Below are positions 5,332 to 20,299 of a stretch of DNA of 21,177 nt, piece by piece. Location of the stretch: positions 1 to 21,177 of IMG/VR virus record IMGVR_UViG_3300044630_006926; one strand, 5' to 3'. The translations under genes and the position numbers were made by a program. Within the stretch, counting starts at the first letter, position 1, and each line of letters opens with the position of its first letter. A model generated the notes under the pieces. The model saw nothing but the letters and a program-made list of their open reading frames with translations, was not told where the DNA came from and did not search any database. Origin of the DNA: a virus.

Positions 5332-5829
5332 TTAATGAAACATTGAATCAACAGGGGTGAGATGTGCGCGAAGCATCCATGCCCACTTTTGATGCATGTC
5401 AATTCGCCCTGCAATGAAATCAGCGATACCTTGCTGATTTGCCGCATCGGCTGCTGCAAAACTTTCTTTAAGGCAATCAAGCATTATTTCGTTTGCAGCA
5501 AAAAGATCATGGCACATGCTCATTGGGTTACAACCGCATTCCATGTCTTCAATACTTGTCAACGCGGCAAACTCTGCCAAACGGTACGGAGCAAGAGCAC
5601 CGAGCTTGCGAAGATTTTCTGCAAGTGGGTCAATTGATCCATACACATCGCTGTAAATTTCGCCAAAGAACTCGTGGTATTGCGTAAAGTCTGGGCCCAT
5701 AACATTCCAGTGATGTCCTTGAGCTTTAAAAGCAAGAACTACTGCGTTACCAAGACACTCTGCAAGTGATTCAGCAACAGCTGGGTCACCAACGCCGTAC
5801 CCAATTGGGTTCATTTCTTCTTTATACAT
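5332..5829 (-). CDS. dps: Dps-family ferritin-like protein
   Basis: 165 residues, the usual Dps length. Dps proteins form 12-subunit cages that oxidise ferrous iron with peroxide at inter-subunit ferroxidase sites and protect DNA. The signature is clear: HHWNVMGPDF at 39-48, YHEFF at 51-55 and IDPLAENLRKLGA at 66-78. Ferroxidase ligands H40, H52, D67 and E71 are present with canonical spacing (H, +12, +27, +31). The ligand expected at +16 (Asp or Glu) is Gly56, with Glu57 adjacent, so the site may be altered. Cysteines at 98, 100 and 106 are unusual for the family. The N-terminal tail is short and not basic, so DNA binding through a Lys/Arg tail is unlikely. The ribosome binding site is AAGGA before ATG. 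It sits 9 bases after the portal stop, presumably co-transcribed with head genes. Confidence 0.93.
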   Translation of the reverse strand: MYKEEMNPIGYGVGDPAVAESLAECLGNAVVLAFKAQGHHWNVMGPDFTQYHEFFGEIYSDVYGSIDPLAENLRKLGALAPYRLAEFAALTSIEDMECGCNPMSMCHDLFAANEIMLDCLKESFAAADAANQQGIADFIAGRIDMHQKWAWMLRAHLTPVDSMFH

Positions 5830-5838
5830 AAGTTATCC

Positions 5839-7602
5839 TTATTGTTCGGTCGGCGCTGGTGGCGCTGTTTCTTCTGTTGCTGGCTCAAGCAATCCAGTTG
5901 GCGCAGGAGCAGGTTCTGATTCTCCAGCAGGTTGCGCCATTGGTGGCATACCAGGTTGGCCACCTTGAAGCATTTGCTGAAGTTCTGGAGGCATTGGCGC
6001 TACGCTATTTGCCTGTTGTGCATTTCTTGTAGATGCCATAAGATCGGGAGCAATTGCACCAATGACTGCTTCTGTGAGTTCAGGAGTAATTGCGCCTTTT
6101 TCAATAATCATACGAAGTGCAACTTCTTCTGGGCTTGGTGCATCGGCTTCGCTAAATCCGTGCATTCTTCGCCAAGTGTCAAAGCTAACTGCCATCTTTC
6201 CAAAGCCAGACTCGGCGTCTGCAGCTCTGTCGTTGCGAGTAGCAACTGCAGATGGGTCGTACCAAATAACAATACGATCAACTTCAGCCTCGGGGAAACC
6301 GTTTGCAATAAGATACGGACGCAAGTACACAATTGTAAGCGCGTCTGCAATAAGCAGCATTAACGGTTCAATGTGCGACTTGTACAGTGACTCGTCAATT
6401 TGCATTGCATTGCTGTATTTGACATTTGCAAGTCCGGTAACGATATCTTTTGGAACATCCAAACCTTGCAAAATTCTTTCAAGCACACGATCCGAACGAG
6501 CAGCAAGTGCTGGGTCAAATGAACGCTCAAATTTGAACTGCTTAATTTTGTCGCCAAGTTCAGCAGGTCCGCGAATAATCAAAGGAACAACCGCACTGGC
6601 TGAGTCCTCATCACGAATTGGAGTTGTCATCGCGTCGATGAGCTGATCCTCGAACTCGTCTGCAGCTTCCTCTGGTGTAAACCCGGGATCAAGATCTGTT
6701 TCATCATCGTACGGGTAGTTCGGATCTGGAGATGCCGCAACGCTAAGACCGTCGGGCAGATAGAGCGCGCCAGCGTTCAGACGGGAACGCGCCGTTGCAC
6801 GGAACGTGCGGTTTAGCAAAAGAAGTTCTGCGCAAAGATCTAAAAGACCGCGCAGTGACGAATCCGCTTCGTCAGAAAATCTTGGGTGAGCACGCCAGAT
6901 ACGCCCAACGAAAGCGTTTTCTGGCAAAGGAATAATTCCTTTATTAACTTTGCTACTGCTTGACGACCCTGCATTTTGTCCGGGCAGATAATCTCTTCGA
7001 GCAACAATGCCGTACTTATTTTTGCTGTCGATTTGAACTTCGTCTACAGAGCGAATATCCCATGATTCTGGAATGCCAGAGCCAATACGGGCTGGCATCT
7101 GCACTAGATAGCACTCACCTGTCACTGAAAGGTTCAGAGCGGCATCTCGTAATAGACCAGCCTGACCGCCATAAGCAGAATCAAGACGTGATAGAGCCCT
7201 TTCTGCGGCCGCCCCAAGCCGTGCGTCAATATTGCTTGCATTACGGACTGAAACTGGGGTTTCAGCCGGGTTATCAATAACTGCTGCATACAAGCGAATA
7301 CGGGAAACTACAGAAGCAACGAGGTTAAATGCATACTTAACTTCGCCAATCGCGTCGTAGTACTCCCAGGCTTCTCCCTGCCATGCAGAGGAAGTTGACT
7401 GTCTACGATTCTTAAAATACTCAGCTTCGCCCTTGTCGTTCATGCGAACCTGAGCTGCCGCCGCGGTCAAAGCACGAGGAGCAGAAAATGGCGCTGATTC
7501 CGCAAATGTGAATCCAGCAGGCGGAACCTGCTGTACAACACGCGACGGCGGTGTAGCCGTTCTCCGTGTCGGTGGTACTTGTTCTCGGCGGAATACGCCC
7601 AC
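5839..7602 (-). CDS. Phage portal protein
   Basis: 587 residues from GTG 7602, preceded by AGGAG eight bases upstream. The portal forms the dodecameric ring at one capsid vertex through which the terminase packages DNA. Recognition rests on the actinophage-style segment EAWEYYDAIGEVKYAFNL (about 75-92) followed by VSRIRLYAA, the GECYLVQMP and IWRAHPRFSDEADSSLRG stretches, the clip/stem-like middle ending VPKDIVTGLANVKYSNAMQI, and IADALTIVYLRPYL in the wing region. The last ~70 residues are Pro/Ala/Met-rich and probably disordered. The length is in the normal range. It is followed directly by dps, with the terminase 5 kb upstream on the same strand. Confidence 0.92.
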   Translation of the reverse strand: MGVFRREQVPPTRRTATPPSRVVQQVPPAGFTFAESAPFSAPRALTAAAAQVRMNDKGEAEYFKNRRQSTSSAWQGEAWEYYDAIGEVKYAFNLVASVVSRIRLYAAVIDNPAETPVSVRNASNIDARLGAAAERALSRLDSAYGGQAGLLRDAALNLSVTGECYLVQMPARIGSGIPESWDIRSVDEVQIDSKNKYGIVARRDYLPGQNAGSSSSSKVNKGIIPLPENAFVGRIWRAHPRFSDEADSSLRGLLDLCAELLLLNRTFRATARSRLNAGALYLPDGLSVAASPDPNYPYDDETDLDPGFTPEEAADEFEDQLIDAMTTPIRDEDSASAVVPLIIRGPAELGDKIKQFKFERSFDPALAARSDRVLERILQGLDVPKDIVTGLANVKYSNAMQIDESLYKSHIEPLMLLIADALTIVYLRPYLIANGFPEAEVDRIVIWYDPSAVATRNDRAADAESGFGKMAVSFDTWRRMHGFSEADAPSPEEVALRMIIEKGAITPELTEAVIGAIAPDLMASTRNAQQANSVAPMPPELQQMLQGGQPGMPPMAQPAGESEPAPAPTGLLEPATEETAPPAPTEQ

Positions 7603-8945: not shown

Positions 8946-11385
<2,440 letters not shown>

Positions 11386-12851: not shown

Positions 12852-14273
12852 CTAGCGCTTAGGCATGAACACTCTTCCTCCACCGCTATTGCCATTACCG
12901 TTACGGAACGCTGGCATACGCCTAGCCGCAGGTGATTTGGCAGTAATCTTACCGCCCAAAAACCCTTGAGGTGGTTTGATCATTAGCGCTGTTAGTGCAT
13001 GCACCAATGCATCTACGCGGTCAGGTGATTTGCCTTCACCTGGAATCCAAGCGCACATTTGTGATTCAAGGTCCGCAAGGTATCCAACATGATGAATACG
13101 GTCTTGTTCGTATGCAAGCGTGATAGGCTCTGCGCGAAGTGCCTTGCCATATTTTGAATGCACTTCAAAAACTTTTACCGCAGGGTCAATTGCATTGATT
13201 GCATTCCGCACAAGCGCACCGCCTTGGTTTACTTCCGCTACAACTGGGCATGACCACTTGCGCGCCATTTCAACAACCTTGTTCGCCCAGGTTTCGGGTG
13301 AGCCATGTATTGTTGCATCCTCGAGTACCCATGCTTGACGTTTGTAAAGGTCACGGTCGCCAGTTGATGCGCAAACAACGATACCGCATTCGTCTCTTGG
13401 ATTTTCAGCTACAGATGGGTCAACGCCAATCACGCGCAAAGGCGTACCAATTGGGTACGCTGTTTGACGAGACCTTTCAATCATTTCAATTGTCCAAAGA
13501 GCGCCTTCAATATCGTCAAGCATTTCACCGTAAAGTTCTTGAGCCGCGAGACGTGTTCCTTCGTACACTCCAACAATTGTGTTCAAATAAGCGCTAGATA
13601 GGTTACCCGCATTGTCAAGCGTTGATCCACGCGACACTACAACGCGGCCAGGGTACTGATCAGACTCTTTAAGCAGTGAATACAGTAGCGGCACACGCTT
13701 GGGCGTTGTTGTAACCATGATCTGTGGATTAGCGCCAAGACGAGTACCTACGCGAAGGTTGTCAAACGCAGTCATACCTGCCGCATCTGGTGTCTGCCTC
13801 CAAGCCGCTACTTCGTCGCCCCAAGCATGCGTGAATTGAGGACCGCGAAGTGAGTCAGGTTCGTCTGCCGTAAAACAAGTTGCCGTATTTCCGTTAGGCC
13901 AAGTTAGTCGACGTTTTGACGGTTCATACAACGGTTTTTCACTAGGAGGCGAAACGTTGATGATTCCGGATTCACCTTCAACGATAACGTCACGAACGTC
14001 AGCTGCAGTACGTGCAACGAGCGCAAAACGTCGTTGACCTGTTGTTGTGTACTTGGCTTGTTCGCGTACCCATTCCGCTGCCGTGCGCGTCTTGCCGGCG
14101 CCGCGACCCGCAAGGAATAACCAGATTGCCCAATCGCCTTCTGGTGTTTGTTGCTCTGGTCTGCCCCAGGCTTTCCAATCCCAGACAAGCGATTCCATGT
14201 CAACGCCTTCAAGAGCCGCATTGCGCTCTTGTTCTGACAGTTTTGCAAGCTGCTCCATTAGGCTCATACCCAT
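12852..14273 (-). CDS. terL: Terminase large subunit (Terminase_6 type)
   Basis: 473 residues, normal length. TerL is the ATPase that pumps DNA through the portal and the nuclease that cuts the packaged DNA. Walker A AGRGAGKT is at 55-62 and Walker B THAWGDE ends at D153-E154; the coupling motif MVTTTPK is at 186-192. The C-terminal RNase H-like nuclease shows GVDPS (D285), VAEVNQGG (E348) and PDRVDALVHA (D418/D421). The C-terminus is Gly/Asn-rich and basic. Start ATG 14273 is supported by an extended -10 box, TGT-TATAAT, ending 6 bases upstream, implying leaderless mRNA. No small terminase gene lies directly beside it. Confidence 0.95.
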   Translation of the reverse strand: MGMSLMEQLAKLSEQERNAALEGVDMESLVWDWKAWGRPEQQTPEGDWAIWLFLAGRGAGKTRTAAEWVREQAKYTTTGQRRFALVARTAADVRDVIVEGESGIINVSPPSEKPLYEPSKRRLTWPNGNTATCFTADEPDSLRGPQFTHAWGDEVAAWRQTPDAAGMTAFDNLRVGTRLGANPQIMVTTTPKRVPLLYSLLKESDQYPGRVVVSRGSTLDNAGNLSSAYLNTIVGVYEGTRLAAQELYGEMLDDIEGALWTIEMIERSRQTAYPIGTPLRVIGVDPSVAENPRDECGIVVCASTGDRDLYKRQAWVLEDATIHGSPETWANKVVEMARKWSCPVVAEVNQGGALVRNAINAIDPAVKVFEVHSKYGKALRAEPITLAYEQDRIHHVGYLADLESQMCAWIPGEGKSPDRVDALVHALTALMIKPPQGFLGGKITAKSPAARRMPAFRNGNGNSGGGRVFMPKR

Positions 14274-16956: not shown

Positions 16957-17418
16957 CTACTGGCCTACGTAGTTTTCTACAAGAACTTTGTATTCTGGGC
17001 AAAGGTACGTAACTGCGCCAAGCATTACCGCAGCCGCGTACTCTGAAGTAAACATCGAGCCTGTAGTGTACTTGCGCATTTCTTCAAGAATGTCACCAAC
17101 TGAAAAGCCGTCATCGAGAAGACTGCAAACAAAGTCACCAAATTCTAAAACTGATGCTTTGCTTTCTGAGTTAGCCATGCCGGACGCGTTCAAGACAGAC
17201 TGATAGTAGTCGTCATACTTGTTCCGACTTTGGCTGTCTTCGATTACCGCACTTGAGTTAGAACTTGGCGAAGAATTTGAGTCAGAGCCAGACTGAGTTA
17301 CAAAGATAGCAACCGCTAAAACTACGACTGCTACTGTCAACGCCGCTAGCCAAACATTCTTTTGAATAAAGTTTTTTGGAGCCGGAGGAACCGGCGGCGT
17401 AAATTGTTCATTTGACAT
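16957..17418 (-). CDS. DUF732-like membrane-anchored protein
   Basis: 153 residues, ribosome binding site AGGAG. A Pro-rich cytoplasmic start is followed by one hydrophobic helix (about 22-40, WLAALTVAVVVLAVAIFV), a Ser/Asn-rich linker (43-63), then a helical domain with FGDFVCSLLDDGFSVGDIL (93-111) and AAAVMLGAVTYLCPEY (128-143). The paired cysteines (C98, C140) and the final AVTYLCPEY resemble DUF732 domains of mycobacterial secreted proteins. The expected topology is N-in with an extracytoplasmic domain. A phage copy could alter the infected cell's envelope or act in superinfection exclusion, but that is inference. Confidence 0.75.
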   Translation of the reverse strand: MSNEQFTPPVPPAPKNFIQKNVWLAALTVAVVVLAVAIFVTQSGSDSNSSPSSNSSAVIEDSQSRNKYDDYYQSVLNASGMANSESKASVLEFGDFVCSLLDDGFSVGDILEEMRKYTTGSMFTSEYAAAVMLGAVTYLCPEYKVLVENYVGQ

Positions 17419-18166: not shown

Positions 18167-18328
18167 CTATCTTGACCGCGTGGCCAAAACCGCCGACGTG
18201 ACTCCAGCCACGCTGACAGCCGCAACTGAGGTCACACTTGCACCCGCAATTGCCATAATAACTGCGCCAACGTGCAGTCCGACGGAAAATACCGCCGGCC
18301 ACACGATTGCCTGGACAAAATCTTTCAT
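18167..18328 (-). CDS. Small hydrophobic membrane protein, 53 residues
   Basis: ATG 18328 overlaps the preceding HTH gene stop as ATGA. After MKDFVQ almost the whole protein is hydrophobic and Ala/Val/Gly-rich (AIVWPAVFSVGLHVGAVIMA, then VTSVAAVSVAGVTSAVLA), closing with TRSR. One or two membrane helices fit. A holin-like role is possible from size and topology, but there is no lysin beside it, so this is only a suggestion. Confidence 0.68.
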   Translation of the reverse strand: MKDFVQAIVWPAVFSVGLHVGAVIMAIAGASVTSVAAVSVAGVTSAVLATRSR

Positions 18329-18645
18329 GAGTTGATTTTGCGGGTGCGACCCTTGAGACGTGCTGAAGCGTCGCGAACTGGAGTACCGCTCTGCTCAATC
18401 AAACGACGAGCCTTACCGTAGGTGACGCTGAGCGCGCTTGCTACTTCGGCCACTGACTTGCCTGACGCGTAAAGCTCTCCGGCCTGGTTCGGGCTGACTT
18501 CTGTGGTCATTTCCATCTTCTTTCTTTGTGGTATTTGTTTTGTTTCTGTTGAGGGCGTTTCGGCTAGTGAGGCCAAAACTTCCCGGGACCTTTTGAAAAG
18601 ATCCTCGGCTTCTTTGAGCAACCGTACGTGAGTGTTTGCTGCCAT
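18325..18645 (-). CDS. HTH DNA-binding protein, 106 residues
   Basis: Residues 1-45 form a charged helix and linker. Residues 52-92 are a homeodomain-like HTH: GELYASGKSVAEVASALSVT, then YGKARRLIEQSGTPVRD. A basic tail (RLKGRTRK) follows. This style of HTH (YxSGxSVxEVAxxLxVTYGxxRRLLxxxG) is common in actinobacterial phages. It resembles the second HTH of the protein at 8341-8895. It is probably a regulator or nucleoid-associated factor; its targets are not visible. ATG 18645 follows the previous stop by 3 bases. Confidence 0.78.
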   Translation of the reverse strand: MAANTHVRLLKEAEDLFKRSREVLASLAETPSTETKQIPQRKKMEMTTEVSPNQAGELYASGKSVAEVASALSVTYGKARRLIEQSGTPVRDASARLKGRTRKINS

Positions 18646-18891: not shown

Positions 18892-19050
18892 CTACTTTTT
18901 TTGTTCCATTTTGTAAGATTTTTTCGGGTGAGCTTCTGGGTTCGCGCACGAAGGAGGCGAAGACGGCATGACGTAAAAAGTGACCCGCTGCTTGCATTCT
19001 GGGCATTCCCATTTGTTTGGCTTCGGTTTTACGTTTTCTTCTTCTTGCAT
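18892..19050 (-). CDS. Small zinc-ribbon protein, 52 residues
   Basis: ATG 19050 with GGGAG seven bases upstream. It reads MQEEENVKPKPNKWECPECK, then VTFYVMPSSPPSCANPEAH and a Lys-rich tail. Metal ligands are C16-x2-C19 and C35 with H41, a compact zinc-binding pattern seen in small actinophage proteins. An overlapping reading frame (18857-19063) is a shadow. Function unknown; the basic tail fits nucleic-acid contact. Confidence 0.75.
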   Translation of the reverse strand: MQEEENVKPKPNKWECPECKQRVTFYVMPSSPPSCANPEAHPKKSYKMEQKK

Positions 19051-19092: not shown

Positions 19093-19368
19093 CTATTTCG
19101 CAATGCGAAGATTCACTTTTTGCGCTCGACGTGCTTTTCTTCTTTCATTTGCAGTCATGCCGCCCCAAACTCCGTACTCGTCGTGCTTCATTGCATGAGA
19201 CAAACACTGCTGTCTTACGCTACAGCCGGCACACACTTGCTTTGCTTCGCGAACAACAGTCAGTTTATGATCGCTGAAGAATAGTTCTTGCTTTCCTGAG
19301 CAAGCCGCATACTCTCTCCACGTGAGATCCGCGAGGGAGACTGTTCTGTGCGTATTTTCTTTTGTCAT
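19093..19368 (-). CDS. whiB: WhiB-family [4Fe-4S] transcription regulator
   Basis: 91 residues from ATG 19368; the longer frame would overlap the previous gene. WhiB-like proteins are specific to actinobacteria and their phages; they carry a [4Fe-4S] cluster and act by binding region 4 of the principal sigma factor. The four cysteines are C23 (YAACSGKQ), C46, C49 and C55 (CAGCSVRQQC), followed by GVWGG at 66-70 and a basic C-terminal tail (RRKARRAQK). All hallmark elements are intact. It follows the proteasome-like gene by 22 bases, so both are probably made together. A mycobacteriophage WhiB (TM4) represses a host whiB gene; a similar role is possible here. Confidence 0.93.
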   Translation of the reverse strand: MTKENTHRTVSLADLTWREYAACSGKQELFFSDHKLTVVREAKQVCAGCSVRQQCLSHAMKHDEYGVWGGMTANERRKARRAQKVNLRIAK

Positions 19369-19390
19369 TTCGTCTTTCTTTCTGCTGAGT

Positions 19391-19987
19391 TTATTTTGTA
19401 ATTGGCTGCGATTGATGCATGATGTGGAACGGTGACCCAGATCCCACATCGAGCTTTGCCGCAATTGTTAGCGATTCACGAATAACTTTCTTAGTAGTTT
19501 CTACCCCTGACTCCGCAAGACTGTCTCCAGTCATTGCGTACATCGCGCCCAGTGCGTAGTCTCCGCCGGAGCCGAACGAGTAGATGCCTGTTGTGTCCCG
19601 CACCCAAGCGTAGTCTTCGTCTATTTCATAGATCTGACCGTTCACGATTGCAAGAACTACTGAGCCGTGTTGCGCTTGTTCCTTCGATTCTCTCGAAGCG
19701 TAGCCATGCTCTTCGAAGCACGAACGTAAAGCCGGTACAAATTTGCTAGTAATGAATCGATCAAGTCGAACTCCTGTTAAGTCCATCGCCTTTGGCGGTT
19801 GAAATGAGTATGCAAGAATGTTGATTGCGCGAACATCGCCGGCAGCACCGAGAAGATACTGACCGTTTTTGACGACCTTCGACGAACCGCGACCGAGCGT
19901 GTACGATCGCCCACCTTCTTCTGTTACGCGAGAATCAAATCCTACGACTGCCCATGACGGGCCTTGAACAGCGATGATTGTAGTCAC
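19391..19987 (-). CDS. Proteasome beta/HslV-type Ntn hydrolase
   Basis: 198 residues from GTG 19987. The start MTTIIAV gives an N-terminal threonine after Met removal, as in HslV, with no propeptide. The catalytic set is recognisable in mature numbering: Thr1, Asp17 (GFDSRVT), a lysine near 36 (SSKVVK), the GSGGDYALGA motif (139-148 unprocessed) and a D-x-x-S pair (D180, S183) matching Asp166/Ser169 of proteasomes. The fold is therefore probably an active threonine peptidase that assembles into rings. No ATPase partner is encoded nearby, so it may use host unfoldases or act alone. It is next to whiB. A TGG-TACCAT box 7 bases before the GTG might give a leaderless transcript. Confidence 0.88.
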   Translation of the reverse strand: MTTIIAVQGPSWAVVGFDSRVTEEGGRSYTLGRGSSKVVKNGQYLLGAAGDVRAINILAYSFQPPKAMDLTGVRLDRFITSKFVPALRSCFEEHGYASRESKEQAQHGSVVLAIVNGQIYEIDEDYAWVRDTTGIYSFGSGGDYALGAMYAMTGDSLAESGVETTKKVIRESLTIAAKLDVGSGSPFHIMHQSQPITK

Positions 19988-20023: not shown

Positions 20024-20299
20024 CTACGGGCGACCGTGATCTACCCAGTCGTCGTAGTCTCGATCGTCCCACTCGGACTCATCTCGCTCGTATGACGAGG
20101 TTGTCCCACACACTGGGCAGTCCCAGTCATAAGTGACAGTTCCGCCGTATGCTTCAGCGAGCACGTCTTGATCGTCCACATCAGTGCCGTACTCGGCGCA
20201 TTCTGTGTTTTCGCACGAAGCTGTGATTGTCAGTTCAGTCTCGACTCCGCCGGCAATTTCGTACTCGTTGCCTGTGACGCCTGGTGGATAGTTTGACAT
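20024..20299 (-). CDS. Acidic zinc-ribbon protein starting MSNYPPGVTGNEY
   Basis: 91 residues with GGAAGGA before ATG 20299. The opening MSNYPPGVTGNEYEIAG is a conserved N-terminus I recall from many actinobacteriophage proteins. Metal ligands are probably C29, C34 (ASCENTEC) and C61-x2-C64 (CPVC). The C-terminal 25 residues are very acidic (ESEWDDRDYDDW). Function unknown; acidic small phage proteins sometimes mimic DNA or bind host enzymes, which is speculation here. It is the first gene behind promoter copy 2 and is followed by the proteasome-like gene and whiB. Confidence 0.78.
   Translation of the reverse strand: MSNYPPGVTGNEYEIAGGVETELTITASCENTECAEYGTDVDDQDVLAEAYGGTVTYDWDCPVCGTTSSYERDESEWDDRDYDDWVDHGRP

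Follow-up and report, generated by a model that had tools for sequence, protein, structure and literature searches.

A proteasome-like hydrolase encoded beside WhiB in a viral contig: a candidate accessory peptidase of the BPH/HslV type

The locus

We analyzed a viral record of 21,177 bases (IMGVR_UViG_3300044630_006926), here called the window, which is itself a fragment and carries its genes mostly on the minus strand. A gene for a proteasome-like peptidase lies in it next to a gene for a WhiB-family regulator. The features that matter for the analysis are given below; residue counts refer to the loci collected as described under "Relatives of the peptidase".

19391-19987 (stop codon included), minus strand: proteasome/HslV-like N-terminal-threonine hydrolase, 198 aa, GTG start, without propeptide
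19982-19984, minus strand: codon of Thr1, the predicted nucleophile (T in 160/160 loci)
19934-19936, minus strand: codon of Asp17 (D in 160/160 loci)
19877-19879, minus strand: codon of Lys36, the equivalent of proteasome Lys33 after a three-residue insertion (K in 160/160 loci)
19838-19840, minus strand: codon of Gly49, the equivalent of the oxyanion-hole Gly47 (G in 160/160 loci)
19568-19570, minus strand: codon of Ser139 in GSGG, the equivalent of proteasome Ser129 (S/T in 159/159 full-length loci)
19439-19450, minus strand: Asp179-x-x-Ser182, the equivalents of proteasome Asp166 and Ser169 (D and S/T in 159/159 full-length loci)
19369-19390, minus strand: 22-base gap between the peptidase stop codon (19391) and the WhiB ATG (19368)
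19093-19368, minus strand: WhiB-family regulator, ATG at 19366-19368, 91 aa, four Cys ligands, GVWGG
18892-19050, minus strand: small zinc-ribbon-like ORF (WECPEC...), 52 aa, the steadiest neighbor of this type of WhiB
18325-18645, minus strand: small helix-turn-helix-like ORF (AGELYASGKSVAEVA...), another member of this syntenic block (HTH_58 under its cut-off, E = 0.0041)
20024-20299, minus strand: 91-aa ORF upstream of the peptidase with two Cys pairs, zinc-ribbon-like by eye only
12852-14273, minus strand: terminase large subunit, given as context, some 4.7 kb downstream of the peptidase-WhiB pair
5839-7602, minus strand: portal protein (context; phrog_776, E = 1.1e-102)

A preliminary description of this DNA had placed a proteasome-like hydrolase with a complete catalytic set 22 bases upstream of an intact WhiB regulator and had suggested that the pair could serve as a take-over module. 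The spacing was confirmed, and no terminator-like site was predicted within the 22 bases. The regulator is indeed intact: it scored 69.8 bits against Pfam WhiB (cut-off 23.6; E = 3e-19) and displays the arrangement C-x22-C-x2-C-x5-C together with GVWGG. Members of the WhiB family bind an Fe-S cluster and region 4 of sigma factors. By the Pfam match, the four cysteines and the GVWGG motif the window protein resembles the WhiB-like proteins described from actinophages, such as TM4 WhiB (PMC8612146). Comparison with the 98%-identical neighbor L004 gave a dN of 0.029 and a dS of 0.591 for this gene. When close relatives were sought with WhiB as query, two contigs came up, neither of them new to the collection.

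Among the small ORFs around the pair, the 52-aa zinc-ribbon-like ORF matched no Pfam family above cut-off, and Pfam, PHROGs and PADLOC assigned no function to the 91-aa ORF upstream of the peptidase. The window further encodes a DUF732 protein (16957-17418, minus strand; E = 2.4e-7), DUF732 being the commonest domain reported around phage whiB genes (PMC8612146). A ferritin-like, possibly Dps-like protein (5332-5829, minus strand; PF00210, E = 9.8e-18; phrog_3636 'DNA binding protein', E = 1.8e-23) is encoded directly 3' of the portal gene, and a tail-fibre protein (8946-11030, minus strand) contains six stretches of collagen repeats (PF01391, E = 1.1e-28).

Relatives of the peptidase

A tblastn search with the peptidase matched 34 phage records. 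The closest was Actinomycetia phage DSL-LC01, a metagenome-assembled genome from Dishui Lake whose peptidase (WJZ48484.1) is 67.7% identical, while all others reached 41% or less. Scanning IMG/VR twice yielded 81 relatives in the first round and at least 490 in the second, and the 80 best of each round entered the analysis. These two lists by similarity, which share contigs, were combined with three annotated phage records, the window and one locus from a cellular genome collection (L084) to give 160 loci; they form 88 clusters at 95% identity, many with flanks that are cut.

The cellular locus came from a scan of GTDB genome contigs with two peptide patterns strict enough to miss distant cellular homologues. 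It was the only match (L084 5001-5627) and is labelled as a gammaproteobacterial MAG, yet a WhiB gene lies 648 bp from its HslV-like gene, so that this is probably an actinophage contig assigned to the wrong bin. As the single locus retrieved with these patterns sits on a WhiB-bearing contig, the idea of a cellular gene in a viral bin was rejected. The family, found in large numbers on phage contigs of actinobacterial type, thus looks viral and actinobacterial.

A distant homologue with 36% identity (tblastn) is present in OX376641 (LanE43-AprF5), a record without annotation. By its name we take it to be F5, which has been cultured on Ca. Planktophila LanE-43; the paper on these phages mentions genes for host-protein degradation (PMC10202952). 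Two further genomes encode two HslV-like paralogues each (G033: L244 2715-3251 and L245 2475-3044; G031: L246 2200-2769 and L247 2294-2827), which stem from different branches of the family and both have intact active sites. At another locus (L034 1579-2100) the HslV-like gene lies between ORFs that resemble, by eye, a primase zinc finger and TOPRIM.

A conserved active site under purifying selection

The sequence and the alignment indicate that the mature peptidase would start with TTIIAVQ and that Thr1 follows directly upon the start codon. Since the match to Pfam Proteasome stays below cut-off (E = 0.02; 15 bits versus 22.4), the HslV-like assignment rests on phrog_1040 ('peptidase HslV family', E = 1.7e-21), on a profile search against PDB sequences and on an AlphaFold2 model. 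The catalytic set that the preliminary description had listed is complete, comprising Thr1, Asp17, Lys36 and Asp179-x-x-Ser182, to which Ser139 in GSGG can be added. Relatives retain it throughout: Thr1, Asp17, Lys36 and Gly49 are invariant in all 160 loci, and S/T139, D179 and S/T182 are kept in every one of the 159 full-length loci.

Against L004 the peptidase showed a dN of 0.007 and a dS of 0.343, that is a dN/dS of about 0.02, and is under strong purifying selection. A chance ORF is ruled out by the conservation, the AlphaFold2 model and the dN/dS ratio, and a decayed enzyme is ruled out by the loss of catalytic residues in none of the 160 loci. Judged by its residues, the peptidase of the window is apparently active.

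A proteasome-type fold with BPH and HslV as nearest relatives

The AlphaFold2 model, built from 38 aligned sequences of the window and the fetched loci, shows a confident proteasome-type fold (mean pLDDT 92.2, pTM 0.89). Both helix pairs are present, with H1 and H2 and an H2-like helix at residues 71-92; the C-terminal S12/H5 element is absent from the model. When Foldseek was run against the PDB, the first four matches were the betaproteobacterial proteasome homologue BPH (Thiobacillus denitrificans, E = 1.7e-12), followed by HslV and proteasome beta subunits. VIA-align gave BPH a Z of 19.3 at 2.7-3.0 Å versus 18.7 for an archaeal proteasome beta subunit, which is a tie, as are all Z differences below 1. 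The family profile matched BPH with E = 1.8e-12 and HslV with E = 3.2e-10 among PDB sequences.

BPH (PDB 5ovs, 5ovt, 5ovu) is thus the best match by sequence profile and by Foldseek, and it shares with the window protein Thr1 and the lack of a propeptide. No partner unfoldase is known for BPH, which assembles into tetradecamers and binds epoxomicin (PMC5777263). In contrast to BPH, to which its identity is about 22%, the window protein is phage-borne, and its pore-loop segment (residues 93-108) reads as mixed in charge rather than acidic; the same segment is acidic in the alignment of several distant relatives, for example L041 and L067. HslV has the fold, the MTTI start and the GSGG motif in common with the window protein. 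The NCBIfam HslV model TIGR03692 matched all 15 family members scanned, but the window protein, at 24.1 bits, lies far under its cut-off of 157.75, and it contains equivalents of Asp166-x-x-Ser169, of which the Asp is missing from E. coli HslV.

Position next to the portal gene

Prohead proteases usually sit directly after the portal gene. We considered that the enzyme might replace the prohead protease and cleave scaffold, capsid or internal virion proteins during head assembly. In F5 (L259 17155-19491, OX376641) the HslV-like gene begins 15 bp after the portal gene; the major head protein is encoded beyond it on that strand, and a scan of ten F5 proteins revealed no other protease. The gene also abuts the portal gene, after the terminase, in one clade (L068, L069, L071, L072, L077, L078 and the truncated L083). 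This position suggests a head-assembly role in F5 and in that clade. Elsewhere the gene precedes the portal gene by about 300-400 bp (L027, L033, L134, L150) or by about 1.5-1.6 kb (L114, L115, L117, L119, L155), and a terminase gene lies 0.7-5.4 kb downstream in 14 of the 15 clusters that make up the clade of the window, the flank of the remaining one (L098) being short.

Overall we consider this role unlikely, though it is a serious rival. Five of ten large contigs with closely related terminases miss the gene, and a recognized terminase, portal or head-protein gene (six query proteins were used) was found within 5 kb in only 14 of 51 well-flanked clusters. The gene stands beside ThyX among tRNAs in phage Pumpernickel and lies at the right end of Hum25, and the two paralogues with intact active sites that coexist in G031 and G033 also speak against it. 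A combined history, in which an actinophage-own proteasome lineage with a fully canonical active site would act as head protease in some phages, such as the cultured Planktophila phages and the portal-abutting clade, and would have been redeployed in a WhiB-containing regulatory operon in the clade of the window, strikes us as quite unlikely.

Pairing of the peptidase with WhiB

We wondered whether the peptidase and WhiB act together, as the take-over proposal implies: the peptidase would remove host regulators of the WhiB family or sigma factors, and the phage WhiB would replace them. The pairing does recur in other actinophages. DSL-LC01 carries the same gene pair with a spacing of 24 bp, and WhiB lies at most 120 bp downstream in 12 of the 15 clusters of the window's clade, DSL-LC01 among them, within a block that includes the zinc-ribbon and helix-turn-helix-like ORFs. 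Five further clusters (L130, L125, L152, L026, L031) have an adjoining WhiB of a different subfamily (C-x24-C, DMHGVWAGLTSRQL). Moreover, of 30 long carrier contigs, a subset of the loci selected for length and possibly fragmentary, 29 encode WhiB, compared to 24% (711/2951) of sequenced actinophages (PMC8612146, section 7).

Against joint action, adjacency is confined to 17 of the 88 clusters, with some WhiB within the fetched flank in 29, and its distribution on the tree needs at least six changes. Synteny also breaks between the two genes. Five clusters (L006, L015, L017, L105, L104), as against the 12 that have all three genes side by side, retain WhiB beside the zinc ribbon while the HslV-like gene is not adjacent; in the last four it is displaced by about 0.8-3 kb. 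In L015 and L017 it directly precedes a LysM-like ORF, with the terminase further on, and in L105 it retains an upstream SH3-like ORF. Such contigs, where the WhiB block is elsewhere, also encode a subtilase at a distance of one or two genes from HslV: it comes after the LysM-like ORF in L015 (5222-6502; PF00082, E = 3.5e-32) and lies upstream in L017, the similar subtilases in L017 and L105 being recognized by eye.

A further comparison used contigs chosen by their terminase, and thus selected by neither gene. Among 25 such contigs (of 80, mostly the longest), six carried both HslV and WhiB, six HslV only, eleven WhiB only and two neither. WhiB is therefore found in 6 of 12 contigs with HslV versus 11 of 13 without, the peptidase count being lowered because some known carriers (e.g. 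L167, L170, L208) had been left out. All ten of these contigs with at least 75 kb carry WhiB regardless of the peptidase, which is present in five and absent from the other five. Going by these counts, WhiB is characteristic of these phages in general, and the peptidase gene is accessory. Phage lineage accounts for the presence of WhiB in 29 of 30 carriers, far over 24%, better than a tie between the two genes does.

An obligate HslV-WhiB pair was rejected on the terminase-chosen counts and the displaced HslV clusters. The pairing is hence real and recurrent but adjacent in a minority of clusters; as the two genes are distributed largely independently and WhiB is as common without the peptidase among terminase-chosen contigs, its reading as a take-over module is mostly not supported, and we regard joint action of this kind as distinctly improbable. 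The peptidase and WhiB look like two neighboring units rather than one joint weapon. No paper describing the pair appeared among the open-access PMC papers listed, and a search there joining Nanopelagic with proteasome gave no match. In term searches, the text of PMC8612146 contained no mention of protease or proteasome, and the main text of the Dishui Lake paper, which discusses WhiB of DSL-LC01, mentioned neither HslV nor protease.

A possible mode of action

On balance we lean, with some reserve, towards a reading in which the window derives from a tailed phage of aquatic (lake-dwelling) actinobacteria and its peptidase is an accessory, catalytically competent homologue of the BPH/HslV type that lacks a propeptide, self-assembles and functions without a dedicated phage ATPase, WhiB being a separate matter. 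Host methionine aminopeptidase would remove the initiator Met, and this removal would expose Thr1 without any propeptide having to be cleaved. Given the fold and the nearest relatives, the subunits would most likely form closed homo-oligomeric double rings as in BPH or HslV. Such rings may then cleave unfolded or short polypeptides during infection. BPH, with neither propeptide nor known unfoldase, is the biochemical precedent (PMC5777263). WhiB, which lies downstream in the same direction, is probably co-transcribed with the peptidase; together with the zinc ribbon it would constitute a separate small unit acting on host or phage transcription, and the products of the two genes need not act jointly.

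Unfolded or short proteins are proposed as substrates because no HslU/ClpX-type AAA_2 protein (PF07724) exceeded the cut-off in any of the 30 long carriers, which are possibly fragments. A PF00004 AAA protein did so in 18 of the 30. The proteins of two such carriers were examined, one CobS/MoxR-like (AAA_5 with a VWA partner) and the other an AAA protein of 528 aa. The latter (L242 566-2152; PF00004, E = 8.5e-24, with a weak AAA lid) is encoded in genome G004, that of L135, about 9 kb from the HslV-like gene, and by its domains could be a candidate unfoldase. The peptidase may therefore borrow an unfoldase. Counting against the reading that we favor are the PF00004 proteins in 18 of the 30 carriers, the tie between BPH and the archaeal beta subunit in VIA-align, the non-acidic pore-loop segment and the portal-adjacent gene in F5 and one clade.

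A monomeric enzyme that processes or ligates one substrate in the manner of connectase, or another non-degradative Ntn hydrolase, has its precedent within the wider family (PMC8665760), and the lack of an HslU-type partner over cut-off in the long carriers would fit it. However, no long connectase-type insertion is apparent in the model and the Asp166-x-x-Ser/Thr169 and GSGG-type motifs of degradative subunits are retained, which makes this very unlikely. Mixed rings with host PrcB, also raised in the preliminary description, in which phage subunits would enter or cap the host PrcBA particle, are suggested by the shared fold and by actinobacterial hosts often possessing PrcBA, but are hardly credible because the window protein is BPH/HslV-like: its nearest sequence relatives and nearest solved structures are BPH and HslV (the VIA-align Z values being ties), S12/H5 is absent from its model, and the bacterial proteasome beta model TIGR03690 (PrcB) left it unmatched at E up to 1 and matched 4 of 15 family members weakly.

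Place among known proteasome homologues

The accessory BPH/HslV-type peptidase that we favor belongs to a known phage family, as HslV-like proteins have been seen in phages before. Phrog_1040 and the annotated proteins of DSL-LC01, Pumpernickel (gene 135), Hum25 (gene 81), pT24 and 121Q are of the same family, although only DSL-LC01 is close and the gene contexts in Pumpernickel and Hum25 differ. The group I homologues include HslV, BPH, AAH, CPH and PPH, of which PPH and AAH have been reported in phages, and the new homologues were described as lacking informative genomic context (Fuchs, Alva and Lupas, 2021; PMC8665760, section 14). Like AAH and PPH the window protein is compact and without S12/H5; unlike PPH, which has about 140 residues and no H2, it has a mature form of 197 residues with H2 present (PMC8665760).

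The same paper states that its authors came upon AAH in no phage specific to actinobacteria (PMC8665760), a remark on the related form that the large actinophage family qualifies. Proteasome homologues occur widely in phages and have no assigned function there, and the family offers a conserved active site and recurrent contexts (portal, terminase, WhiB). Because F5, in culture together with its host Ca. Planktophila LanE-43, encodes a distant member, the role of the family is testable.

Plasmid-borne homologues from Rhizobium, Sinorhizobium, Streptomyces and Paraburkholderia fall together with proteins from a Bacillus plasmid, a Psychrobacter phage and a Moorella phage, and a branch with support 90/98 separates this group from the actinophage family. 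The Rhizobium, Sinorhizobium and Streptomyces proteins are likely AAH, judging by their taxonomy rather than by the alignments of Fuchs et al. The likely AAH representatives taken in this way differ from the family of the window at four active-site positions: in the plasmid group the position of Gly47 is occupied by Ser, that of Ser129 by Cys or Ser, that of Asp166 by Ser (so in the likely AAH proteins) or Val and that of Ser169 by Val, whereas the 24 actinophage sequences compared all retain T, T, D, K, G, S/T, D and S/T. The protein of Tenacibaculum phage pT24, which falls in neither group, likewise has D17, K, G, S, D and T.
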